A stretch of DNA of 24,668 bases from a virus, in IMG/VR virus record IMGVR_UViG_3300008267_010481, positions 1 to 24,668 of that record, one strand, 5' to 3'. Shown piece after piece: positions 2,403 through 17,193 of this stretch. The translations under genes and the position numbers were made by a program. Position 1 is the stretch's first letter. Every line of letters begins with the position of its first letter. The notes under the pieces were generated by a model. That model made no database searches. It was given only the letters and a program-made list of their open reading frames with translations, and had not been told where the DNA came from.

Positions 2403-3464
2403 ATGAACTTTCAAGACAACACACCATATGATATCTTAACAGAGAAGTGGAATCCCGTGCTTGATCACGGTGCTCTTCCAAGCATCTCTGATGACTACCG
2501 TAAGAAGGTCACAGCCGTCCTTCTTGAAAACCAAGAACAAGCCATCCGCGCCCAACACCTGACCGAAGACATGTCTTCGAACAACTTGGGCATGCCTACA
2601 AGCTTCACCAACACCGGTGCAGTTTCTGGCTATGATCCTGTTCTCATCAGCCTCGTTCGTCGTTCCATGCCAAACCTCATGGCCTACGACATCTGCGGCG
2701 TTCAACCAATGACAGCCCCAACCGGCCTCATCTTCGCAATGCGCGCTAACTACGGTGGCAACACCTACGGTAGCACCGCTAACTACCGCGAAGCTATGTT
2801 CCAAGAAGCTCAACCACAATACGGTGGCTCTGGATACACATTGGCTGCTGCTGATAAGGGCTCCAATGGCCAATACGGTCTCTGCGGATCTTGCGGTGGT
2901 ACAAGCGGAAACCCATTCTTGCTCCGTGCAGGTGGTGCCGCTAACTTCAGCACATTCCGTGGCCTGTTGACAAGCACAGGTGAAGCTCTTGGTTCGCCAA
3001 CAACCTTCAACCAAATGGCTTTCTCCATCGACCGCGTTGCCGTCCAAGCTCGTACACGTGCTCTGTCCAGCAACTACACCGTCGAATTGGCACAAGACCT
3101 CAAGGCAGTTCACGGATTGGATGCCGAAGCCGAACTCGCAAACCTCCTCAGCACAGAAATTCTTGCTGAAATCAACCGCGAGATCGTTCGTACCATCTAC
3201 TACGTTGCTCGCAGAGGTTCGGTCCAAGGCGACCTTTCCACCGCTGCTGGTGGCGTCTACGATCTTGACCAAGACTCTGACGGTCGTTGGTCTGCCGAGC
3301 GCTTCCGTGGCCTCACCTTCCAAATCGAGCGTGAGTGCAACGCAATCGCCAAGGAAACCCGCCGTGGTAAGGGCAACTTCATCATCTGCGATAGCGATAC
3401 CGCAGCAGCCCTCGCCATGTCTGGCTTCATGAGCCTCAGCCCAGCAATTGCTCCTGTGCAGTAG
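2403..3464 (+). CDS. 23: Major capsid protein gp23, N-terminal three quarters; reading frame broken before the C-terminus
   Basis: Gp23 forms the hexamers of the T4-type capsid shell. The start is set by AGGAGA 11 bases upstream. The first 353 residues look like gp23: ILTEKWNPVLDHG, NLMAYDICGVQPMTAPTG, VELAQDLKAVHGLDAEAEL, EINREIVRTIYYVARRGS, then RGKGNFIICDSDTAAALAMS. The frame ends at TAG 3462-3464 shortly after SLSPAIA. The expected continuation (in T4 some 90 residues including an ADYYxVGYKG-like block and the AGxYYAPYVPL block) is absent, and the final domain continues in another frame (see next entry). Codon use is distinctive, with many C-ending codons: 30 of 60 bases are G/C at 2521-2580, far above the glycan island. 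A broken capsid gene cannot serve a viable phage, so this is either an assembly error or a defective variant. Confidence 0.88.
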   Translation: MNFQDNTPYDILTEKWNPVLDHGALPSISDDYRKKVTAVLLENQEQAIRAQHLTEDMSSNNLGMPTSFTNTGAVSGYDPVLISLVRRSMPNLMAYDICGVQPMTAPTGLIFAMRANYGGNTYGSTANYREAMFQEAQPQYGGSGYTLAAADKGSNGQYGLCGSCGGTSGNPFLLRAGGAANFSTFRGLLTSTGEALGSPTTFNQMAFSIDRVAVQARTRALSSNYTVELAQDLKAVHGLDAEAELANLLSTEILAEINREIVRTIYYVARRGSVQGDLSTAAGGVYDLDQDSDGRWSAERFRGLTFQIERECNAIAKETRRGKGNFIICDSDTAAALAMSGFMSLSPAIAPVQ

Positions 3465-3631
3465 ATCCAAATACGTTCCAACCACGTATTGCATTCAAGA
3501 CCCGTTACGGCGTTGTGGCTAACCCATACGTCCTCAACGGTACAACACCAGACGGTGAAGCTCTCACCCAAGGCTTGAACCAATACTACCGTATCACTCA
3601 AGTAACACACCTCCACGGCAACACCATCTAA
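3455..3631 (+). pseudogene. 23: Out-of-frame C-terminal remnant of gp23
   Basis: In the frame starting at 3455 the translation runs CAVDPNTFQPRIAFKTRYG and on to the end at TAA 3629-3631. This is the typical gp23 C-terminal block (T4: DPKNFQPVMGFKTRYG). It has no start codon of its own and belongs to the gene that begins at 2403, offset by one frame. The junction lies within about 3445-3458. Restoring the frame needs a missing stretch of length 1 modulo 3. Compared with other gp23 proteins about 75 to 90 codons appear to be lost. Confidence 0.85.
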
Positions 3632-3655
3632 TAGGTGACCGTGTGTAAGAACACG

Positions 3656-3690
3656 AAGACCTCCCGAGAAATCGGGAGGTCTTTCATTTT
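3656..3690 (+). terminator. Rho-independent-type terminator after the capsid gene
   Basis: A perfect 12-base-pair stem, AAGACCTCCCGA (3656-3667) against TCGGGAGGTCTT (3672-3683), closes a GAAA tetraloop and is followed by TTTCATTTT. It lies 25 bases after the gp23 stop and before the next gene, so it should end the head-gene transcript. Confidence 0.9.
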
Positions 3691-6952: not shown

Positions 6953-6972
6953 AACTGTGAGGTCTATTGACG

Positions 6973-7611
6973 ATGATAATTGATTTGCGTGAAATACCTG
7001 TTGTCTGGATAAATTTGGACTCCGCGACCAAAAATGCACAGACAATGGAAGAACGATTTAAAAAATTTGGATTTAAAAATACACATAGAAAATCCGGATT
7101 GATTATTCCACCACCTGAAGGAACAGATCCTTCCATTGCCCATTTTATGGGGTGTGGTCAATCTCATATTGACATTTTGGATGATCAAAACTATGATACT
7201 CCTCTTCTTATTTTGGAAGATGACATAGAGTTTGCTGAAGATTTTAACCCAGTAATTGAACTTCCAGACGATTCTGATGCAATCTATCTGGGTATTTCTC
7301 ATGGTAACAGATATTACCAAACATGCAAAAAAAGCCCAGACTACTTGAGAATATCTGGTATTTTGGCGGCTCATGCAATTTTGTATGTAACAAAAGAATT
7401 TAGAAAAGCCATGTCCGATGTAGGAAAAATGTGTTTATATCAACTTAAAAAACCATGGGATATTGGTACAGCAAACATACAACACAAACACAGAGTTTAT
7501 ACACCAAATAAACCTGTCATATACCAATCAAACGATAGAGAAAGTGCCAATAAATGGCAAAATTTGACTGACAAGCCTCTCGCAAATACATTTACAATTT
7601 TTCCATCATGA
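6973..7611 (+). CDS. Glycosyltransferase family 25-like protein
   Basis: A 212-residue protein like GT25 (LPS biosynthesis) transferases, usually galactosyl- or glucosyltransferases using nucleotide sugars. Visible hallmarks are the opening VVWINLDSATKN (GT25: INLDxxxxR), FMGCGQSHIDIL near 58-69 and the LEDDIEF acidic motif at 81-87 that would bind the metal and nucleotide. The C-terminal part is shorter than in many bacterial members. ATG 6973 is chosen over an in-frame TTG at 6967, because GAGG lies ten bases upstream of the ATG. It is the first gene after the promoter, and its stop overlaps the next ATG (7608). Confidence 0.8.
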   Translation: MIIDLREIPVVWINLDSATKNAQTMEERFKKFGFKNTHRKSGLIIPPPEGTDPSIAHFMGCGQSHIDILDDQNYDTPLLILEDDIEFAEDFNPVIELPDDSDAIYLGISHGNRYYQTCKKSPDYLRISGILAAHAILYVTKEFRKAMSDVGKMCLYQLKKPWDIGTANIQHKHRVYTPNKPVIYQSNDRESANKWQNLTDKPLANTFTIFPS

Positions 7612-8399
7612 TAACATTTAATTTAATGGGTAGATATGGCAGAATGGGAAATCAGATGTTCCAATATGCAACGTTATATGCGATTGCAAAAACAAGGAAA
7701 TATGATTTTGGTGTTCCATATCAAGTAAAATCAGATAACCCTTACCAAAATTTTTGTTTAAATGAATGTTTTCCCAATTTGTCTGCAAAAGACAGTTCTA
7801 ATGTCAGAAATATTCATTCTGCACAAGAAAAAGTATTTACATACAATGCTGGTATATTTGGAATACCCGATAACACAGATGTTGTTGGATATTTTCAAAG
7901 TGAAAAATATTTTAAAGACTATCGACAAGCTCTACTAAAAGAGTTTACGTTTTCGGATAACATCCAAAATAAGGCACAAGACATAAGATCTATCACAAAA
8001 GAGCCCGTAATTTCCATACACTTAAGACTTGGAGATTATAAAAATCTAGTAGGTAAACATCCCGTCTGTGGTATCGAATATTACAAAAATGCCCTCAAAG
8101 AAGTTCCAGAGGACCTTTTGATTGTTGCATTCAGCGATGAACCAAATCTTGCAAAAGAAATTTTTGATGGATTGAACAGAAAATACTTCCTCACTGATAC
8201 AAACGATCAGTACATCGATATGTGTCTGATGACTTTGTGTAATTATCACGTAATTGCAAATAGCAGTTTTAGTTGGTGGGGTGCTTGGTTGTCGGAAAGC
8301 AAAAAAGTAGTAGCTCCCGCCACATGGTTTGGCGAGTCACCAGAAATGCCAAAAAATTGGTCTGACATATATTGTGATGGGTGGACTGTATGCGAGTGA
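7608..8399 (+). CDS. Alpha-1,2-fucosyltransferase-like protein (GT11)
   Basis: A 263-residue protein with all the GT11 hallmarks: GRMGNQMFQYA near 11-21, SIHLRLGDY near 136-144 (the HxRxGDY-type GDP-fucose binding loop) and NSSFSWWGAWLS near 218-229. GT11 enzymes move L-fucose from GDP-fucose to the 2-position of a galactose or related acceptor; bacterial ones act in O-antigen and Lewis-type glycan synthesis. No membrane segment is seen, so it should be cytoplasmic. The length is a little below the roughly 290 residues of bacterial relatives. It starts within the last codons of the GT25-like gene (ATGA overlap). The donor specificity is inferred from the family. Confidence 0.9.
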   Translation: MITFNLMGRYGRMGNQMFQYATLYAIAKTRKYDFGVPYQVKSDNPYQNFCLNECFPNLSAKDSSNVRNIHSAQEKVFTYNAGIFGIPDNTDVVGYFQSEKYFKDYRQALLKEFTFSDNIQNKAQDIRSITKEPVISIHLRLGDYKNLVGKHPVCGIEYYKNALKEVPEDLLIVAFSDEPNLAKEIFDGLNRKYFLTDTNDQYIDMCLMTLCNYHVIANSSFSWWGAWLSESKKVVAPATWFGESPEMPKNWSDIYCDGWTVCE

Positions 8400-9214
8400 A
8401 TGAGCTTTCAGCATTTGGAAGTCCATTTGCTCATGATGTTACTTCATGTATGGGAATACCACCTAGTAATTTTACCTGGGTATTTGACAGACCTTGCTCC
8501 AGCAATATAGAAGTATATCTTGATTATAATATCCTCGGTGGTATGCAAAGTCGTTGTCAAAATAAATTTTTATGGCTTTGTGAATCTCGTGGAATAACCC
8601 CAAACCAACTAGAATTTGTAAAAACAAATTACAGTGAATTAAAAAAAATATATAAAAAAATATTTACCCACGTCACCGAGGTAGTTGATTTGGATGATTG
8701 CTTTGAGTATTGTCCTCCAGCAGCAAATATGACATGGATAAAAAATAGGGGAATCCATAACAAGACAAAATTAATTTCTATGGTATCTTCCGGTAAAAGT
8801 TTTTGCAAAGGCCATGAGTTCAGAAACAAAATGATGGAGAAGTTCAAAGAATCAAATTACAATATTGATTACTACGGAAGATCATTCAATCCTTTTAAAG
8901 TAAAAGAAGACGTATTGAATGATTATTATTTTTCAATAACAATTGAAAATGAAAAGTACTCCAATTACTATACTGAAAAATTAATGGATTGTTTTGCAAC
9001 AGGAACAATACCGGTATACCACGGAACACCAGATCTTCCAAAGATGTTTAATCCAGATGGTGTATTGATACTAGAAGAAAACTTTGATTTTAATTTATTG
9101 ACTTCAGAACTTTATTATGAAAAAATAGACGCAATAAAAGAAAATTATGATTTGTGCATGAAGCACATGTCTGCAGACGATTTTATATACGAAAAGATTA
9201 CAAACTTACTATGA
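8390..9214 (+). CDS. Alpha-1,3/4-fucosyltransferase-like protein (GT10)
   Basis: A 274-residue protein whose C-terminal half has the GT10 donor-binding signature: FSITIENEKYSNYYTEKL at 181-198 followed by GTIPVYHGTPD at 205-215. GT10 enzymes transfer L-fucose from GDP-fucose to GlcNAc or glucose in the 3- or 4-position; bacterial members modify LPS. The N-terminal acceptor half has FTWVFDRPCSSN and FLWLCESRGI. ATG 8390 is chosen over GTG 8381 because GGGTGG precedes it; it overlaps the GT11 gene by ten bases. Having GT11 and GT10 in tandem suggests a difucosylated product or two alternative fucosylation sites. No GDP-fucose synthesis genes (gmd, fcl) are visible, so the host would have to supply the donor. 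Confidence 0.85.
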   Translation: MRVNELSAFGSPFAHDVTSCMGIPPSNFTWVFDRPCSSNIEVYLDYNILGGMQSRCQNKFLWLCESRGITPNQLEFVKTNYSELKKIYKKIFTHVTEVVDLDDCFEYCPPAANMTWIKNRGIHNKTKLISMVSSGKSFCKGHEFRNKMMEKFKESNYNIDYYGRSFNPFKVKEDVLNDYYFSITIENEKYSNYYTEKLMDCFATGTIPVYHGTPDLPKMFNPDGVLILEENFDFNLLTSELYYEKIDAIKENYDLCMKHMSADDFIYEKITNLL

Positions 9215-9948
9215 AAAATTGTTTAATATATCAGCCCTGCGGTCTTGGAGATATTATTTGGCTTCAACCAATTGTCGACAAACTAATCTCAGATGGATAT
9301 AAGATTTATTATCCTGTAATAGATCTGTATTACGACATGCTAAAAGAGCAAATGCCAAAAGAAAATCTTATTTGGGTAAAGGAAAGTGAAGACTTTCCGA
9401 TGAAATCATTCTATGGAACTCACGTCACAAGAAATGACGGAAACAATCTATATCTGCCAATATCTTTTGCCAACTATTACCTGCAAAGATGTTCCGTCAT
9501 GATAAGTAAGTATTATTACATGAATATGCCAATAACAAATTGGCACAAAAATGTAAATATAAAAAGAAATACCGAAAAAGAAAATCGCTTGATCAAAGCA
9601 TACAAAATCGACCTCTCAACTCCATTTGCATTGGTCAATATGGTATACGGTACACCCCCAAATCACGTTTCACGGGCAATGACACTCAGCTCCGATGCAA
9701 GTCAACTGGTCCACATGTCATTTGAAAAGGACCGGGAGCATGGGTTTACTCTCTTTGATTGGATTGGTGTAATAGAACGCGCAGTAGAGATACATACCGT
9801 TGAAACATCATTGTGCTATCTGGTTGATATGTTTGCGAAGACTGATAAAATTTTTATGTATGAAAAGCGACGTGAAAGCGAGCAACATACATATTATGGT
9901 CTCGTTAACCTAGTTTATAGAAATCCAAATTGGAGTTATTTAAATTAA
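9211..9948 (+). CDS. GT9/heptosyltransferase-like (GT-B fold) protein
   Basis: A 245-residue protein starting at ATG 9211 in an ATGA overlap with the previous gene; an upstream TTG at 9154 would overlap that gene by 61 bases. The N-terminus LIYQPCGLGDIIWLQPIVDKL resembles the first Rossmann half of heptosyltransferase-like GT9 proteins (GxGDxxxxxPxxxxL), and EIHTVETSLCYLVDMF near the C-terminus resembles their HTxxTSxxHLA donor-site helix. It is shorter than classical GT9 enzymes (about 320-350), so one half may be reduced. The activity and sugar are unknown; a glycosyltransferase role is inferred from these two motifs and its neighbours. Confidence 0.65.
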   Translation: MKNCLIYQPCGLGDIIWLQPIVDKLISDGYKIYYPVIDLYYDMLKEQMPKENLIWVKESEDFPMKSFYGTHVTRNDGNNLYLPISFANYYLQRCSVMISKYYYMNMPITNWHKNVNIKRNTEKENRLIKAYKIDLSTPFALVNMVYGTPPNHVSRAMTLSSDASQLVHMSFEKDREHGFTLFDWIGVIERAVEIHTVETSLCYLVDMFAKTDKIFMYEKRRESEQHTYYGLVNLVYRNPNWSYLN

Positions 9949-9949
9949 G

Positions 9950-10324
9950 ATGAAAATTGAAGTTTCTAATGGCGAAATAGCCGACAAATACACTATTTTA
10001 AAATTAAAATTAAAACACTGCACTCCAATGAGTGCACAGTATTTTAACATTCAAGAAGAGTATACGATCCTTTTTGAAGCTGTTGATCAATTAAAACTAA
10101 ATCAATCTTTGGTAGAAGATCTTTACGTTATTAATAAAGAACTTTGGGAAATTGAAGATAAAATTAGAGTTTTAGAACAACAACAAGATTTTGGAGAAGA
10201 GTTTGTAAAATTGGCTAGGTCTGTATATATCACAAATGATAAAAGGTTTTTAGCCAAGAAAAAAATAAATACGGATTCAAATAGTAAGCTCTACGAAGAA
10301 AAAATTTTACCAAAATATGATTAA
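9950..10324 (+). CDS. DUF6165 family protein
   Basis: A 124-residue protein that I recognise as DUF6165: MKIEVSNGEIADKYTIL at the N-terminus, VINKELWEIEDKIR in the middle and FVKLARSVYITNDKRFLAKK toward the end. The family is small, mostly helical and usually sits next to glycosyltransferase genes; its biochemical role is not known. Gene order here follows that rule, with a GT-B-like gene before and a DUF5672 gene after, overlapped by eight bases. A helper or scaffold role for a neighbouring transferase is a guess from position only. Confidence 0.85.
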   Translation: MKIEVSNGEIADKYTILKLKLKHCTPMSAQYFNIQEEYTILFEAVDQLKLNQSLVEDLYVINKELWEIEDKIRVLEQQQDFGEEFVKLARSVYITNDKRFLAKKKINTDSNSKLYEEKILPKYD

Positions 10325-11018
10325 TTTAAATGATGTGACAGTCGTGACAATTGATGGAGTTGGTAAAAACTCAGATGCCCTAAAGGCATTGAAGTATACT
10401 TGTAAAAAAATTAATTTTGGAGATGTGTTGTATTTTTCTCCAAAAAATTGGTCTAAAGATAAATTTTATAAATTTATAGAAATACCAAATCTCTCATATG
10501 AAGAGTATAACAGATTTTGTTTAATAGACTTGGTAAAGTATGTGAATACTAATTATGTGCTTATAATTCAAGATGATGGGTTTGTACACAATCCTGAACT
10601 TTGGAGCAACGATTATTTAAAATATGATTATATAGGAGCACCCTGGCCAAAACAACATTTATTTTTTAATACCAAAAGATGGCCAATGGTTCACAAAAAT
10701 CTATGTGAAAGCAATGTGGAATATCACGTAGGTAATGGTGGATTTACCATGAGAAGCAAAAGGTTGCTAGAAGAGGTTGGTAAAATGTATCTGCAAGAGC
10801 ACAAGGATATTCCAGAAGATGTTTTGATATGCATTGGTTTTAGAAAAAAACTAGAAGAGTTAAATTTTAAATTTGCTCCGTACAAAGTAGCTAAAAACTT
10901 TTCTTGTGAATCCATTTATGTGGAAAATGAAATTAATTATGCAGATAACACTTTTGGATTTCATGGTAGAGAGACACACTCAAGTCTGGTTAACCTGCTA
11001 AATACTGTAGAATTATAA
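10317..11018 (+). CDS. DUF5672 family glycosyltransferase-like protein
   Basis: A 233-residue protein with the DUF5672 pattern: YVLIIQDDGFVHNPELW near 81-97, YDYIGAPWPKQ, a VGNGGFTMRSKRLL block near 138-151, PEDVLICIGFR, FKFAPYKVAKNFSCE and a terminal FGFHG. The DD within IIQDDG is the candidate metal and nucleotide-sugar site of a GT-A-like fold. Family members are found in polysaccharide clusters, and the acceptor is unknown. The start overlaps the DUF6165 stop, so the two are probably translated together. Confidence 0.82.
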   Translation: MINLNDVTVVTIDGVGKNSDALKALKYTCKKINFGDVLYFSPKNWSKDKFYKFIEIPNLSYEEYNRFCLIDLVKYVNTNYVLIIQDDGFVHNPELWSNDYLKYDYIGAPWPKQHLFFNTKRWPMVHKNLCESNVEYHVGNGGFTMRSKRLLEEVGKMYLQEHKDIPEDVLICIGFRKKLEELNFKFAPYKVAKNFSCESIYVENEINYADNTFGFHGRETHSSLVNLLNTVEL

Positions 11019-11027
11019 AGGTGATTT

Positions 11028-12020
11028 ATGAATATTTTGATAACTGGCGTAGCCGGATTGTTGGGATCTAGATTAGCAGATTGGATGCTCAAGACATCTG
11101 ATGCAAAAATAATTGGAATCGATGACATGAGCGGGGGGTATGCCGAAAATGTCGATCCAAGAGTAGATCTTCATAAAATAAATCTAGCTTCTTCTGATGA
11201 GTTAGAAAAAATTTTTGAAAAAAACAAACCACAATATGTGTTTCACTTTGCAGCATATGCTGCAGAAGGACTAAGTCCTTTTATAAGGCAATTTAATTAT
11301 GAAAACAATTTAATTGCTACAACAAGATTGATAAATCAATCAATAAAACACGATGTAAAAAGAATAGTATTTACATCAACCATGGCCGTATATGGTGTTA
11401 ACAAACCACCATTTATCGAATCATATCAACAGGCGCCTATTGATCCATATGGCATAGCAAAATATGCATGTGAAATGGATTTAAAAGTTGCAGGTGAACA
11501 ACATAAACTAGATTGGTGCATATTCAGACCACATAATGTTTATGGTGTGAATCAAAATATTTGGGATAAGTATAGAAATGTTTTGGGAATATGGATGTAT
11601 CAGCATATGAATGGAATACCTCTTTCAATTTACGGAGACGGCATGCAAACCAGAGCATTCAGCTATGTTGATGACTGTGTTCCATATTTTTGGAAAGGTG
11701 CAACAGATCCCCAAGCATCCAAACAAATTTTTAATATTGGTAGTGATGACCATTGCAGCATAAATGAAGCGTGCGATACCTTAATTGAAGTAATGGGAGG
11801 TGGTAAAAAAGTTTATCTGGAGCAAAGGCACGAAGTCAAAGATGCGTGGGTATCCCATGAAAAAATTAAAAATTTGTTAAATTTTAAAAACTCCACAGAC
11901 TTAAAAACAGGATTAACCAAAATGTGGAAGTGGGCCAATTCTCAACCAAAGAGAGAAAGAAAACTTTGGTCTTCGTATGAGTTGGACAAGGGCATATATG
12001 ATTTTTGGAAATTGAAGTAA
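11028..12020 (+). CDS. NAD-dependent sugar epimerase/dehydratase (SDR, UDP-glucose 4-epimerase type)
   Basis: A 330-residue extended SDR. The NAD-binding loop is GVAGLLG at 7-13, then IIGIDDMSGG, HFAAYAAEG, the STMAVYG segment with the catalytic serine/threonine, and YGIAK with the Tyr-Lys pair. RPHNVYGVNQN and GDGMQTRAFSYVDDC match the substrate half of UDP-hexose 4-epimerases. The likely job is conversion of a UDP-hexose (such as UDP-Glc/UDP-GlcNAc) for the adjacent transferases; the exact substrate cannot be read from sequence by eye. AAGGTG eight bases upstream gives a fair ribosome-binding site. It appears full length. Confidence 0.85.
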   Translation: MNILITGVAGLLGSRLADWMLKTSDAKIIGIDDMSGGYAENVDPRVDLHKINLASSDELEKIFEKNKPQYVFHFAAYAAEGLSPFIRQFNYENNLIATTRLINQSIKHDVKRIVFTSTMAVYGVNKPPFIESYQQAPIDPYGIAKYACEMDLKVAGEQHKLDWCIFRPHNVYGVNQNIWDKYRNVLGIWMYQHMNGIPLSIYGDGMQTRAFSYVDDCVPYFWKGATDPQASKQIFNIGSDDHCSINEACDTLIEVMGGGKKVYLEQRHEVKDAWVSHEKIKNLLNFKNSTDLKTGLTKMWKWANSQPKRERKLWSSYELDKGIYDFWKLK

Positions 12021-12895
12021 TGAAAGCATTATTGTTCAATCATCATCCCGATTATTTGTGGTATACAAAAACTCTTTTTGAATCTCTTGGAATAGAAACA
12101 GATGTAGCCACTGAAGAGTTGACATATAGTCTTGGCGCAGATTACTGTTCTGTTTCAAAAGATTTTAAATTTCAATGTGGAAAAAATTGGTATGATCCAA
12201 AAACTCTTTTTCCAAATACAAAATTTACTTATAGCAATACTCACGTCGGGTATGATTATTATTTTAGCATAAACCCGACGATAGCAGAAAACCTACCATA
12301 TGATTCAACCAAAAATATTTTTGGTGCAGTTGTAATATGGCATATACTTCAAAGGAATGATTTTAAAAAGTATAAAAAAATAAGTTCCGTGGATTACATA
12401 AAATCATATGGTGGAACCCGACTTACTTATTTTATTCCGCAAAAGGGAGAGTTAAAAGAAAAAAAATATATAACCCAATTGATGGAATCATATAAAACAA
12501 GATATTTTGACGAAATGATGAATTTGAGACAATCACACCCGGTTGTTATTGCCGGTCACCCCGATGCCCCAGATGGTATAGTAGATGATTGGAGTACATT
12601 ATCTCATACCAGACTTCTAGTGCACCATAAAGAATATGGCTCATGCTGCAACGCGGTCATGAAAGCGCTCGATTGTGGTATACCGGTATACATGAGTAGA
12701 GAAAATAGATACAGACTTGGATTTGATGATATACCTGAATTTTGCTTTATTTTCAGTGATGATTACACTATAGCTCAAGCATACGAGATCAGCAATTCTT
12801 TAGATAATTCATCAATACAATCTGAATTTAGAAAAATAAAAAATATAGAAAAGGCAAAAGAAGAGTTTAAACACATATTAAATATAAAGGTGTAA
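12020..12895 (+). CDS. Putative glycosyltransferase (GT-B-like C-terminus)
   Basis: A 291-residue protein starting at ATG 12020, which shares one base with the stop of the epimerase (TAATG); an upstream TTG at 12005 is less likely. I do not recognise the family with confidence. The C-terminal third reads like the donor half of a GT-B glycosyltransferase: HPVVIAGHPDAP, LLVHHKEYGSCCNAVMKAL, DCGIPVYMSRENRYRLG and FIFSDDYTIAQAYEIS, equivalent to the GxxxxEAxAxGxPV pattern, although the usual Glu of the EX7E motif is not evident. The N-terminal half has MKALLFNHHPDYLWYTKTLF. Context in the island supports the guess. Confidence 0.5.
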   Translation: MKALLFNHHPDYLWYTKTLFESLGIETDVATEELTYSLGADYCSVSKDFKFQCGKNWYDPKTLFPNTKFTYSNTHVGYDYYFSINPTIAENLPYDSTKNIFGAVVIWHILQRNDFKKYKKISSVDYIKSYGGTRLTYFIPQKGELKEKKYITQLMESYKTRYFDEMMNLRQSHPVVIAGHPDAPDGIVDDWSTLSHTRLLVHHKEYGSCCNAVMKALDCGIPVYMSRENRYRLGFDDIPEFCFIFSDDYTIAQAYEISNSLDNSSIQSEFRKIKNIEKAKEEFKHILNIKV

Positions 12896-12896
12896 T

Positions 12897-13454
12897 ATGA
12901 ATACATTAAGTGAAGTATATAAAAATAGTTGTGAGCTTGCAATAGCAGAGGGAATGGAACAACACGGTTCTGATAAAGGAACTCACCACAGCTACATTGA
13001 TGTTTATGAAAGTTTATTTTTAAAGTACAAAGATAAAAAAATAAATCTTTTGGAAGTTGGAGTAAACCGTGGCTATAGTTTATACACATGGAAAAATTAT
13101 TTTGTAAATGCAGATAATTTGGTAGGTATAGAATACCAACCTCATATTGTTTACAAAAAAGATGGAGTAAAGTTAATTTATTCTGACATTAATGATGCAG
13201 ACAATGTTAATTCCCAATTAGGTGATATGAAATTTGATATAATCATAGATGATGGAAGCCACAGAATTGAAGATCAGTTTTTTGCATTTGAACTTTTAAA
13301 AGATCGTCTAAATCCTGGTGGAATCTATGTTATAGAAGATATTCAAAATTTAGAGTCAGATATTTTAAAGTTTCAAAAATATTATCCAAAGGTATATGAT
13401 CTGAGGCAAAATAAAAATAGATGGGATGACGTATTATTTGTTTGGGAGAATTAA
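12897..13454 (+). CDS. Class I SAM-dependent methyltransferase
   Basis: A 185-residue methyltransferase. Motif I is INLLEVGVNRGYSLYTW near 49-65 with the glycine-rich SAM loop, acidic strand-2 residue in LVGIEYQP, then FDIIIDDGSHRIEDQF and LNPGGIYVIEDIQ. This resembles macrocin-O-methyltransferase-like and related sugar O-methyltransferases, where the DD pair after strand 4 helps bind a metal. The N-terminal GSDKGTHHSYIDVYESLF block is also typical of that group (substrate-gating segment). AAGGTGTA precedes the ATG. A role in methylating a sugar hydroxyl in the island product is inferred from context. Confidence 0.8.
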   Translation: MNTLSEVYKNSCELAIAEGMEQHGSDKGTHHSYIDVYESLFLKYKDKKINLLEVGVNRGYSLYTWKNYFVNADNLVGIEYQPHIVYKKDGVKLIYSDINDADNVNSQLGDMKFDIIIDDGSHRIEDQFFAFELLKDRLNPGGIYVIEDIQNLESDILKFQKYYPKVYDLRQNKNRWDDVLFVWEN

Positions 13455-14231
13455 ATGAAAATATATGATTGTTTTACTTTTTATAATGAGTTGGATCTTC
13501 TTGAAATTAGACTAAACGAATTAAATGATGTTGTTGATAAATTTGTATTAGTCGAAGCAGAAAAAACACATCAAAATAAAGATAAAGAACTTTATTTTGA
13601 AAATAATAAAACTAAATTTGCTCCTTTTTTACATAAAATAATTCACGTTATTGTACCAAAAGAGCTTTTTGTAGATAATGATGCTTGGTATAATGAAAGA
13701 TTGCAAAGAAAGTGTATCCTGGAAGGCTTAAAAGAGGCTAATGATGAAGATTACTTAATAGTATCTGATTTAGATGAAATACCTTCTAGCGAATCTGTAA
13801 AACAAGCTATAAGTTTTAAACAAACACCTTTATCTTTTGAGCATATTTTGCACTATTATTATTTGAATACACCATTACTTGTAAGTGATAGTGAAAAAAA
13901 TTTAGGTAGCGTTTTATTGGAAAAATCTTTTTTTGAAAAAAATACAGAAATTGTTAGAGATAGAAAAAAACATAGCTTTAATATTGTAAAAAATGCTGGC
14001 TGGCATTTTTCATTTTTGGGAAATGAAAATGTGGTTTACAATAAAATTAAAAATTATGCCCACACGGAGTTTTCTGATTTGGATTCGGAAACGATTAAAA
14101 ACCGTTTAAATAACATGGAAGATCCTTTAGGCCGTAGTAATTGTAGATTGATTTGCAATACGGATTTAGACTATCTTCCAGCATACGTAAAAAATAATTT
14201 ACAAAAATTTGAAAAATATATAAAGAGGTAA
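13455..14231 (+). CDS. Glycosyltransferase family 17-like protein
   Basis: A 258-residue GT17-type protein. Family hallmarks are IYDCFTFYNELDLLEIRLNE at the N-terminus, DKFVLVEAEKTHQNK, ELYFENNKTKFAPFLHKI, NERLQRKCILEGL, and the acidic DYLIVSDLDEIPS near 108-120 that would hold the nucleotide sugar and metal. Characterised eukaryotic members are beta-1,4-N-acetylglucosaminyltransferases; bacterial and phage members are common in polysaccharide clusters and their sugar is not established. It directly abuts the previous stop (TAA then ATG). The gene is very AT-rich: a hand count of 13921-13980 gives 11 G/C in 60. Confidence 0.88.
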   Translation: MKIYDCFTFYNELDLLEIRLNELNDVVDKFVLVEAEKTHQNKDKELYFENNKTKFAPFLHKIIHVIVPKELFVDNDAWYNERLQRKCILEGLKEANDEDYLIVSDLDEIPSSESVKQAISFKQTPLSFEHILHYYYLNTPLLVSDSEKNLGSVLLEKSFFEKNTEIVRDRKKHSFNIVKNAGWHFSFLGNENVVYNKIKNYAHTEFSDLDSETIKNRLNNMEDPLGRSNCRLICNTDLDYLPAYVKNNLQKFEKYIKR

Positions 14232-14233
14232 AT

Positions 14234-15121
14234 ATGAAAAAAGCTTTAGTATTGGGTGCAGGTGGATTTATTGGCGGTCATCTCGTAACTAGACTCAAAA
14301 AAGAAGGTTACTGGGTACGTGGTGTAGACATTAAAGAACACGAATACAAAAAATCAGATGCTGATGAATTTTTTGTACTAGATCTCAGAAATTCAGATAA
14401 TGTTACCAGAGCATTTACCATAGACAGCATTACAGAAACATTTGATGAGGTCTATCAACTTGCAGCCGACATGGGTGGCGCAGGTTACATCTTTACCGGG
14501 GAGCATGATGCAGACGTGATGCATAACTCGGCAATGATTAATTTAAAACTGGATCCAGACAATCCCAAGTGCTCTGAAGATTCTGCTTATCCCGCTGCAC
14601 CCGACAGTGAATACGGTTGGGAAAAACTGTTCAGCGAACGTTTATACCTTGCCTATAACAGAAACTACGGGCTTCCAGTCAGAATTGGAAGATTCCATAA
14701 TATTTTTGGACCATATGGATCATGGAACAATGGAAAAGAAAAGGCACCTGCAGCAGTCTGCAGAAAAGTAGCTTTTTCTGAAGATGGTATTATTGAAATT
14801 TGGGGAGATGGAAAACAAACCCGTTCATTCCTCTATATTGATGACTGTTTAGATACTGTTCGTCGGTTTATGGAATCAGATTTTATGGGCCCGATGAACA
14901 TCGGGTCTGAGGAAATGATTTCCATAAATGGCTTGGCGGAACTGGTTATGGAAATTGCAGACAAAAAGCTAACAGTAAAAAATATACCAGGCCCAACCGG
15001 AGTAAGGGGAAGAAACTCGGACAACACTCTGATGAGAGAAAAATTATCTTGGTGTCCAACTCTCCCTCTTAAGCATGGTTTAGAAAAAACTTATTCTTGG
15101 ATTAATTCATTTAATAAATGA
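14234..15121 (+). CDS. GDP-mannose 3,5-epimerase-like protein with internal in-frame deletion
   Basis: A 295-residue extended SDR closely resembling GDP-mannose 3,5-epimerase-like proteins: GAGGFIGGHL at 8-17, VYQLAADMGGAGYI near 73-86, SAYPAAPDSEYGWEKLFSER near 117-136, RFHNIFGPYGSWNNGKEKAP, then EIWGDGKQTRSFLYIDDC. These enzymes convert GDP-mannose to GDP-L-galactose or GDP-L-gulose. In relatives, about 25 to 35 residues including an SSSACxYP segment (with the catalytic cysteine and SDR serine) lie between the HNSAMINL block and the LDPDNPKCSEDSAYP block. Here the two blocks are fused at about 14543-14551, with frame kept. As written the product should be inactive. It is also richer in G/C than its neighbours (34 of 60 at 14461-14520), suggesting separate acquisition. 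Confidence 0.85.
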   Translation: MKKALVLGAGGFIGGHLVTRLKKEGYWVRGVDIKEHEYKKSDADEFFVLDLRNSDNVTRAFTIDSITETFDEVYQLAADMGGAGYIFTGEHDADVMHNSAMINLKLDPDNPKCSEDSAYPAAPDSEYGWEKLFSERLYLAYNRNYGLPVRIGRFHNIFGPYGSWNNGKEKAPAAVCRKVAFSEDGIIEIWGDGKQTRSFLYIDDCLDTVRRFMESDFMGPMNIGSEEMISINGLAELVMEIADKKLTVKNIPGPTGVRGRNSDNTLMREKLSWCPTLPLKHGLEKTYSWINSFNK

Positions 15122-15128
15122 GACTATA

Positions 15129-15695
15129 ATGAATATAGTTCAAATAGGTGCAAACAGAGCAGACGATGATTTGACGGCTTTAATTTTTGATAAACAGCCA
15201 AAAAAATTTATAATAGTTGAACCAATGCACATTCATAATGAAGCGTTGCTGGCTTGTTATGATTGGATTGAAAATAAAATTATAGAAAATATTGCTATAA
15301 CTGATGATTTGGTAGATAAAATAAATTTTTATTATCATATTGACGACGGCCCAAAATATGAAGTTGCATCACTGGATCCAAAACATATATTGAAACATAG
15401 GTATTCATCAGATGGAATAAAAAAAATAGAAGTTCCATGTTTAACTATTAATAAATTGCTAGAAAAACACAATATCAATACTGTTGATATTCTTTTTGTA
15501 GATTGTGAAGGGTTAGATGATACCATAATAAAAGCAATTGATTTTACAAAATTTAAAATTTATAAAATTTATTTTGAAAATCTTCATTTAAAAACCGACT
15601 TGAATACGTTTTTAAGTGATAAAGGATATGAAATAAATAAAAATGTAGGACAACATGGTTGGATGAATTTAGCAATATTAAAAAAGGAACTTTGA
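15129..15695 (+). CDS. FkbM-type SAM-dependent methyltransferase
   Basis: A 188-residue protein with the FkbM/Methyltransf_21 pattern: NIVQIGANRADDD at the N-terminus (reduced SAM loop), FIIVEPMHIHNEAL as the acidic strand-2 segment, VASLDPKHIL, VPCLTINKLLEKH and VDILFVDCEGLDDTIIKAIDF near 117-137. FkbM-type enzymes often O-methylate sugars or polyketide hydroxyls and are frequent in capsule and O-antigen clusters. It follows the epimerase by seven bases without a strong Shine-Dalgarno, and its stop overlaps the next ATG (TGATG). The acceptor is unknown. Confidence 0.85.
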   Translation: MNIVQIGANRADDDLTALIFDKQPKKFIIVEPMHIHNEALLACYDWIENKIIENIAITDDLVDKINFYYHIDDGPKYEVASLDPKHILKHRYSSDGIKKIEVPCLTINKLLEKHNINTVDILFVDCEGLDDTIIKAIDFTKFKIYKIYFENLHLKTDLNTFLSDKGYEINKNVGQHGWMNLAILKKEL

Positions 15696-16279
15696 TGGAT
15701 CATTTTTATCAAGAAAGTACATTTGGAGAAAACTGGTTTGATTATCCAAATTTATATAAAAAAATTGTAAATTTAGCAAAAGAAAATAGCCATTTTGTAG
15801 AGGTCGGTTCATGGAAGGGCCGCAGTGCATCTTATATGGCTGTAGAAATTATAAATTCTGGAAAAAATATTAAATTTGACTGTGTTGATACTTGGTCAGG
15901 AACCAATGATCCAAATGAAAAAGAGTCTACACCGGAGTATCGTAACGAGCCAACCATATTAAACGATACTTTATTTGATTTATTTTTGAGCAATACCAAT
16001 AAAGTTTCGCATGCAATTAATCCAGTAAGAAAGGCTTCAACCGAAGCAGCCGCATTGTATGAAAACAATTCTTTAGATTTTGTATTTATTGACGCGTGTC
16101 ATACGTATGATTGTGTGACCGCTGATATAAAAGCATGGCTTCCAAAAATCAAAGAAGGTGGTATTTTGGCTGGACATGATATTGGATATGGTCCAGTTAC
16201 AAGAGCCATCCTTGAAAATTTAGAAAATTGTGAACAAGATGGTTCTTGTTGGGTTTATTATAAAATAAATAATAGATAA
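15695..16279 (+). CDS. Class I SAM-dependent methyltransferase (Methyltransf_24-like)
   Basis: A 194-residue protein from ATG 15695, in a TGATG overlap with the FkbM gene and preceded by AAAAGGAA; a longer in-frame start at 15659 lies inside the previous gene and is less likely. It has HFVEVGSWKGRSASYMAVEI near 35-54 (SAM loop), FDCVDTWSG (acidic strand 2), SLDFVFIDACHTYDCVTADI near 126-145 and IKEGGILAGHDIG. The pattern fits Methyltransf_24-type proteins common in glycan clusters. It is the third methyltransferase of the island and is distinct in sequence from the one at 12897. Confidence 0.82.
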   Translation: MDHFYQESTFGENWFDYPNLYKKIVNLAKENSHFVEVGSWKGRSASYMAVEIINSGKNIKFDCVDTWSGTNDPNEKESTPEYRNEPTILNDTLFDLFLSNTNKVSHAINPVRKASTEAAALYENNSLDFVFIDACHTYDCVTADIKAWLPKIKEGGILAGHDIGYGPVTRAILENLENCEQDGSCWVYYKINNR

Positions 16280-16287
16280 AAAATTAT

Positions 16288-17193
16288 ATGAAATATCTAG
16301 TTACTGGTGGCTGTGGATTTATTGGTTCCAATGCTGTTGATTATCTTGTAAATCAAGGACATACCGTTGTTGTGATTGATAATTTATCATCAGATGTTCA
16401 TGATGTTTTTTACTTTAACAACAAAGCATCATATCATCATTATGATGTATTGGATTATGTAATGTGTTCAGATGTTTTTAATAAACATAAACCAGATGTG
16501 GTGTTGCATTTTGCAGCAGAGGCCAGAATACAAAATTGCATAGAAGATCCACAAAAAGCTTTTGAAGTTAATTCTATGGGAACATTGAATATGTTGGCTT
16601 TGTGCAAAAAATATTCAGTAAAAAAATTAATTTTGTCAAGCACATCAGCAATATATGGTAACTCAAGCCAACAACAGACTGAAAGTGCACAACCAGATTG
16701 TTTGAACCCATATTCTTTGAGTAAACTTCACGCCGAAGATTCTTGTCGGATGTATAGTAAACTATATGCGGTGGAAACAATTTGTTTAAGATATTTTAAT
16801 GTTTATGGACCACGAAATCCATCAAAAGGGCAGTATGCCCCAGTAATTGGTATTTTTAAGAGACAAAAAAACTCAGGAGAAAATCTGACCATTGTCGGTG
16901 ACGGAAATCAAACTAGAGACTTTGTGCATGTCTTAGATGTAGTTAAAGCAAATTATTATTTTAGCTTATCGCAAAACCAATATGGTGGAGATGTATTTAA
17001 TGTTGGTACCGGAAAGTCATACAGCATAAATGATATAGCAAATAAAATAGAACCAGACATTACAAAACACATGCATATGCCAGCCAGACTGGGAGAATGC
17101 AGAGATACAAAGGCTCATATTAAAAAAATTGAGTCTGCTTTATCTTGGAAACCGACTATTGATTTGATAGAATGTCTTGACAATGATAATTAA
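16288..17193 (+). CDS. UDP-glucose 4-epimerase-like SDR
   Basis: A 301-residue GalE-like extended SDR: GGCGFIGSNAVDYL at 7-20 (NAD loop), VVVIDNLSS, VVLHFAAEARIQNCIEDP, LILSSTSAIYGNS with the catalytic serine region, YSLSKLHAED with the Tyr-Lys pair, LRYFNVYGPRNP and GDGNQTRDFVHVLDV. It probably interconverts UDP-glucose/galactose or the N-acetyl forms. The C-terminus after LSWKPTID is short and ends in Asp-Asn-Asp-Asn, and the following promoter's -35 overlaps these last codons. No Shine-Dalgarno is visible before the ATG. It is the last gene of the island. Confidence 0.87.
   Translation: MKYLVTGGCGFIGSNAVDYLVNQGHTVVVIDNLSSDVHDVFYFNNKASYHHYDVLDYVMCSDVFNKHKPDVVLHFAAEARIQNCIEDPQKAFEVNSMGTLNMLALCKKYSVKKLILSSTSAIYGNSSQQQTESAQPDCLNPYSLSKLHAEDSCRMYSKLYAVETICLRYFNVYGPRNPSKGQYAPVIGIFKRQKNSGENLTIVGDGNQTRDFVHVLDVVKANYYFSLSQNQYGGDVFNVGTGKSYSINDIANKIEPDITKHMHMPARLGECRDTKAHIKKIESALSWKPTIDLIECLDNDN

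Follow-up and report, generated by a model that had tools for sequence, protein, structure and literature searches.

A GT10 glycosyltransferase gene linked to GDP-mannose 3,5-epimerase in T4-like phages may encode an L-galactose-transferring enzyme

A GT10 family glycosyltransferase gene in the sugar-gene island of a T4-like phage belongs to a clade which differs from known GT10 enzymes in being linked to GDP-mannose 3,5-epimerase (GME) instead of gmd/fcl. The DNA that we analysed (hereafter, the window) comprises an entire virus record of 24,668 bases, is identical to that record in sequence, and the record is a fragment. Our judgement tips, by a little past even, towards the explanation that the GT10 and GME form a module for making and using GDP-L-galactose within an exchangeable glycan island, and that the neighbouring GT11 is separate from it. 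GME would convert host GDP-D-mannose into GDP-L-galactose (and some GDP-L-gulose), and the GT10, a homologue of GT-B fucosyltransferases, would move L-galactose onto a glycan acceptor. The GT11 would belong to the island's constant border, have no link to either donor pathway, and probably draw on host GDP-L-fucose. The product would most likely modify a surface polysaccharide, either host LPS/capsule during infection or a virion glycan. Chemically, L-galactose is 6-hydroxy-L-fucose, and GDP-L-galactose is known from in vitro work to be a substrate for fucosyltransferases, one of them a plant alpha-1,3 enzyme (PMC8787198); thus, transfer of L-galactose by a GT10 would need no new chemical principle. 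Judging from the promiscuity of known fucosyltransferases, the GT10s of the window's clade would probably accept GDP-fucose as well. Family, fold, conserved residues, GME identity and co-occurrence were computed, and from them we infer enzyme activity, donor choice, acceptor and location; our confidence in GDP-L-galactose as the GT10 donor is moderate, about one half.

The sugar-gene island spans approximately positions 6967-17193 and is surrounded by T4-like core genes, namely uvsY, uvsW, gp55, gp47, gp46 and the capsid gene gp23. Its features are collected in Table 1. The preliminary description had proposed tandem GT11 and GT10 genes sharing ten bases, and the two open reading frames indeed overlap by exactly that length; an alternative GTG start at 8381 would extend the GT10 to 277 aa. 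The gene for the GT25-like protein is the constant neighbour upstream of GT11 and is syntenic in relatives, and the gene at 9211..9948 is a frequent, non-constant companion of the GT10 subtype. The distance from GT10 to GME is about 5 kb in the window as well as in the related contigs L004, L015 and L032. As a candidate regulator we considered the wcaG RNA motif (RF01761), which precedes the sugar islands of S-SM2 (L002 17581-17676) and S-SCSM2R (L003 10035-10132) and was missing from the window, L004, L006 and L007; it was rejected.

Table 1. Coordinates of features of the sugar-gene island within the window
Feature	Position	Strand	Basis
GT25-like protein	6967..7611	+	PF01755 20.2 bits, below cut-off 24; phrog_24091 E 4e-41
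GT11 family glycosyltransferase (alpha-1,2-fucosyltransferase-like), 263 aa	7608..8399	+	PF01531, phrog_2644, AlphaFold
GT10 family glycosyltransferase (alpha-1,3/4-fucosyltransferase-like), 274 aa from ATG	8390..9214	+	PF00852, 2nzw, 9s6a, AlphaFold
Island gene without assigned function	9211..9948	+	in 5/8 GME cassettes, 0/17 gmd cassettes
NAD-dependent nucleotide-sugar epimerase, GalE-like (not gmd, fcl or GME)	11028..12020	+	4zrm UDP-glucose 4-epimerase E 1.3e-41; gmd/fcl models far below cut-off
GT17-family glycosyltransferase	13455..14231	+	PF04724 E 1.8e-28
GDP-mannose 3,5-epimerase homologue (GME), in-frame 84-bp deletion at 14547/14548	14234..15121	+	2c59 E 4.1e-84, gap at chain 128-154
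FkbM-type methyltransferase	15129..15695	+	PF05050 E 8.5e-15
UDP-glucose 4-epimerase-like protein	16288..17193	+	4zrm E 3.8e-52; TIGR01179 181.6 bits, below cut-off 262

The family assignments proposed for the tandem pair held up in profile searches, as both proteins score above the curated Pfam cut-offs and their AlphaFold folds agree. The GT11 matches PF01531 with E 9.5e-24 (84.6 bits, cut-off 23.9) and phrog_2644, a PHROGs phage family labelled 'glycosyltransferase', with E 3e-79. The donor-site signatures pointed out earlier, HLRLGDY in GT11 and IENEKYSNYYTEKL in GT10, are both present with invariant key residues, far beyond chance. In the GT11 signature, an HxRxGDY motif, H138, R140 and D143 are invariant among 54 sequences. 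The GT11 model has a pLDDT of 95.4, and its top folds (FUT8, POFUT1, NodZ and AtFUT1) represent the wider GDP-fucose transferase superfamily. The protein thus shares with GT11 alpha-1,2-fucosyltransferases and phrog_2644 the profile, the HxRxGDY motif and the fold of the alpha-1,2/1,6/protein-O-fucosyltransferase superfamily. It differs from the known GT11 enzymes in that a sequence search against solved structures gave no match, and the alpha-1,2 linkage is putative. NCBIfam provided no name for either GT10 or GT11. On profile and predicted structure, we assign this protein to the GT11 family and fold with high confidence.

The GT10 matches PF00852 with E 9.5e-11 (42.1 bits, cut-off 23.9), and no family was found for it in PHROGs. 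Among solved structures, its sequence matches H. pylori FucT (HpFucT, 2nzw; E 1.5e-7) and an Arabidopsis GT10 (9s6a; E 2e-9). In the donor motif, E186, N187, E196 and K197 are invariant among 46 sequences and Y193 is conserved at a level of at least 90%. Residues N240, Y246, E249 and K250 of HpFucT, which are donor-site residues, align with N187, Y193, E196 and K197 of the window protein, and E65, also invariant in the 46 sequences, is a candidate counterpart of the HpFucT catalytic base Glu95. The AlphaFold model (pLDDT 91.4) retrieved GT10 enzymes as all of its top seven Foldseek matches, including Arabidopsis FUT11, H. pylori FucT and human FUT9. Ranked by Z score, FUT9 leads (Z 15.5, rmsd 4.0 over 242 residues), but other GT-B families score nearly as high against the model, so that the fold by itself does not single out GT10. 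Profile, GT-B fold and the donor residue set are therefore shared with the GT10 alpha-1,3/4-fucosyltransferases (HpFucT 2nzw/2nzx/2nzy, human FUT9, Arabidopsis FUT11), whereas the window protein is shorter (274 aa) and only 14-19% identical to them over the fold. Membership in the GT10 family and fold, as judged from the profile and the model, is assigned with high confidence. Beside the donor motif, GME-linked and gmd-linked GT10s differ at columns 184 (T/A versus V), 192 (N/T versus K/S) and 198 (L versus I). We rejected these columns as a sequence signature of donor choice, since the rows are related and about 270 columns were available; they are a lead, not evidence.

Three epimerases are encoded in the island, and only that at 14234-15121 is a GME homologue, being by far closest to plant GDP-mannose 3,5-epimerase (Arabidopsis GME, 2c59); those starting at 11028 and 16288 are GalE-like. 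None of the epimerases of this 24.7-kb fragment reaches the cut-off of either TIGR01472 or NF047922 (gmd/fcl), for the third one among the best 25 models listed. The preliminary description had stated that gmd and fcl were missing, which is true of the window, and the statement reaches no further than this 24,668-base fragment, the record and the window being the same. Its idea that GDP-L-galactose comes from a neighbouring epimerase fared well in so far as the island contains a GME, the GT10 subtype co-occurs with GME, and gmd is absent; it had to be narrowed to one epimerase of the three, and the window copy of that one lacks part of its active site. Residues S143, C145, Y174, K178, N203, K217, R243 and R306 of GME are listed as catalytic or binding (PMC8787198). 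When compared with Arabidopsis GME and with MfGM35E, a bacterial GDP-mannose 3,5-epimerase (PMC6678494), the intact phage relative L006 retains every one of them, as does the L004 alignment, whereas the window copy misses two of the eight through a deletion of 28 residues (84 bp) containing the equivalents of S143 and C145. Our literature search found no assay of a phage GME enzyme.

The deletion in GME is not the only one in the window. About 180 nt are missing from the major capsid gene gp23 (2403-3690), with a frame change near 3461, and all compared relatives (e.g., L004, L016, L018) are intact there; no such deletion was found in the other large window genes that we scanned. Over 9.3 kb, contig L091 (9,413 bases) matches the window at 100% identity apart from having the 84 bp; the deletion site was compared with L091 1-400, and the partial GME of this contig contains the SSACMYP segment as well as the downstream residues. 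We also considered the 84-bp deletion as a shared trait of this phage type and rejected it, as a degenerate junction pattern matched only unrelated sequences in viral contigs and the compared relatives are intact. Since two such deletions occur in one contig, one of them in an essential gene, both are probably assembly errors, and the 84-bp deletion may yet be a real variant. From the sequences, the identity of GME is of high confidence for the relatives, and the window copy is broken as sequenced.

The near-exclusion of GME and gmd across phage records is new here. Among 50 related records GME is found in 19 and a good gmd in 24. A gmd gene accompanies GME in 1 of the 19 GME records and is present in 24 of the 31 without GME (Fisher p 8e-7, a value to be read as descriptive and not as coming from independent trials, since related and often fragmentary records went into it). 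In these counts G027, a 25th gmd truncated at a contig end, was taken as gmd, and the weaker gmd-like genes of G013 and W19 (233 and 164 bits) were left out. The sole record with both genes is S-SCSM1, a phage for which gmd, fcl, GME and fucosyltransferase genes have already been published (PMC9602691).

This division is followed by the GT10 tree. Of its 73 rows, the clade of ten which includes the window consists of eight GME rows, no gmd row and two of unknown label (SH-aLRT 98). As a control, we counted GME/gmd label changes on several gene trees built for one common set of records from the window's clade (17-25 per gene). The GT10 tree required a single change, against a mean of 6.9 after shuffling, and none of 200 shuffles was as low. 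The GT11 tree required six, about chance (72/200 shuffles as low), and the trees of GT25 (7), uvsW (8) and gp55 (5) were all about chance too. Since the label changes at the chance rate on the uvsW tree, phages with nearly the same uvsW differ in cassette, as can be seen in L022 and L052 or in L004 and L033. Among the cassette families, the GT10 subtype is the best tracker of GME (8/8 GME versus 2/17 gmd cassettes, descriptive p 4e-5), while the other genes are mosaic among GME cassettes (5/8, 4/8, 3/8). Block transfer alone is thereby a less likely cause of the association, and cassette linkage could explain a part of the GT10-GME co-segregation.

Gene neighbourhoods are consistent with this picture. 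In seven records GT10 is the immediate neighbour of GME, with GT10 first in L006, L019, L022 and L057 and GME first in S-SM2, Sf-CH8 and S-T4; in L082, S-CAM9 and SynMITS9220M01 GME directly adjoins GT11, with no GT10 found nearby. Thus, the gene next to GME repeatedly comes from a GDP-fucose-type family. Several findings count against the GT10-GME module: the S143 and C145 equivalents missing from the window GME, the separation of about 5 kb from the GT10, the gmd phages L027 and L049, whose GT10s are related to the window type (54-61% identity), and the S-SM2 branch, where GME-linked and gmd-linked GT10s are close to each other. Many gmd phages (L016 10783-12460, L020, L023, L033, L071 and others) have a tandem pair of different GT10 genes after GT11, the second type being very divergent from the first.

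Marine cyanophages are already known to carry GT10 and GT11 genes, usually at a distance from each other (S-SM2, S-T4, Sf-CH8, S-SSM7, Sf-FS3), and the pair itself is not new. The cyanophage glycan islands (those five, S-SCSM1 and P-SSM2) resemble the window in being T4-like and in carrying GT10 and/or GT11, epimerases, and GT25-like and other transferases. They differ in gene order, with GME upstream of GT10 instead of downstream as in the window's clade, and the islands of that clade lie beside uvsY and are devoid of psbA in the 23 records searched. psbA was present in both psbA-type relatives. A cyanobacterial host for the window phage is thus not supported by the psbA search; we found no host marker for it, and a Polynucleobacter-like host, suggested by the bacterial locus L109, is only a guess.

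We also looked for the association in cells. Scanning GTDB contigs, we obtained 75 GT10 loci: six have GME in the vicinity, nine have gmd and/or fcl, none has both, and 60 have neither donor gene close by. Exclusion around these loci was rejected as stand-alone evidence (p 1.0). Some of the bacterial bins contain phage DNA, clearly in L110 (JAFMEV010000049.1, Chitinophagaceae MAG; uvsW, uvsY, GT25, GT11) and probably in L112 (NZVE01000057.1, Rhodobacteraceae MAG; GME, GT10 and several GT11). The clearest cellular case is the complete genome of Sphingorhabdus sp. 109 (L155), in which GT10 lies about 4 kb from GME. There, searches of the genome gave no gmd match (best 59 bits), no fcl beyond GME itself and weak paralogues, and no match to the fucose pyrophosphorylase of fucose salvage. 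GME is uncommon in the phylum of this bacterium, being found in 8 of 200 genomes, that one included. The nearest cellular GT10 (56%) belongs to a Polynucleobacter MAG (L109), in a locus with GT11, GT25-like and other island homologues. This chromosomal glycan locus holds homologues of GT10, GT11, the GT25-like gene, DUF6165, the 9211 gene and a methyltransferase, and it adjoins putative heptose-nucleotide genes, as read from ORF sequences only.

How the two transferases obtain their donor can be read differently. Both may be ordinary fucosyltransferases using host GDP-L-fucose, with GME serving another transferase of the island. Users of GDP-fucose typify GT10 and GT11, the donor-site residues are conserved, GT11 is found equally with gmd and with GME, and the Polynucleobacter MAG has full gmd and fcl genes, so that such a host could supply GDP-fucose. 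This would leave it unexplained why the GT10 subtype is the best tracker of GME and its tree follows the GME/gmd label, why GT10 directly adjoins GME in both gene orders, and why Sphingorhabdus has a GT10 with no GDP-fucose pathway detected; we regard it as possible but rather doubtful. That the island is in decay, the window GME being dead and GT10 and GT11 relics, is what the 84-bp deletion in the GME active site would suggest if taken by itself. The intact GME of the otherwise identical 9.4-kb contig L091, the gp23 deletion, which makes both look like assembly errors, and the lack of such lesions in the other large genes scanned render decay very unlikely.

The preliminary description had also imagined the two enzymes jointly making a difucosylated motif, alpha-1,2 plus alpha-1,3/4, of the Lewis b/y kind. 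There is family precedent for Lewis b/y synthesis in Helicobacter and mammals, and GT11 and GT10 are adjacent in the window and in many relatives. Comparison with other islands did not support this idea. In most of the 80 GT11 loci that we collected from viral contigs, the genes run uvsW-uvsY-GT25-GT11 and then give way to variable cassettes, in which some type of GT10 usually comes first, and GT11 stays put while the GT10 subtype changes. As GT11 is a constant border gene beside quite different cassettes, its adjacency to GT10 does not mean joint action on one disaccharide. Moreover, a distance of 7-15 kb separates the two genes in S-SM2, S-T4 and Sf-CH8, and no family for type 1/type 2 chain synthesis was found among the island proteins scanned. 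A Lewis b/y product is therefore very unlikely. We thus return to a GT10-GME module using GDP-L-galactose, with GT11 outside it. The further-reaching proposal, that this GT10 lineage is dedicated to GDP-L-galactose and that GME and GT10 constitute a portable L-galactosylation module in phages and a few bacteria (Sphingorhabdus), is tentative and stands somewhat short of an even chance.

GT10 is regarded as a family of GDP-fucose users. If true, the pairing of a natural clade with an enzyme that makes GDP-L-galactose would be a donor specialisation that is undescribed as far as the literature we searched shows; a search for a bacterial L-galactosyltransferase under that name found none. An L-galactose-using GT10 would then be a tool for the synthesis of L-galactosides. 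A caution for annotation also follows: the donor pathway should be looked for before fucosylation is assigned to GT10 and GT11 genes. If the GT10-GME pair is indeed swapped for GT10 with gmd/fcl, near-identical phages would differ in one surface sugar, L-galactose versus L-fucose, that is, in one hydroxyl group. Such a sugar exchange would be a testable case, perhaps of a response to host receptors or to competing phages.
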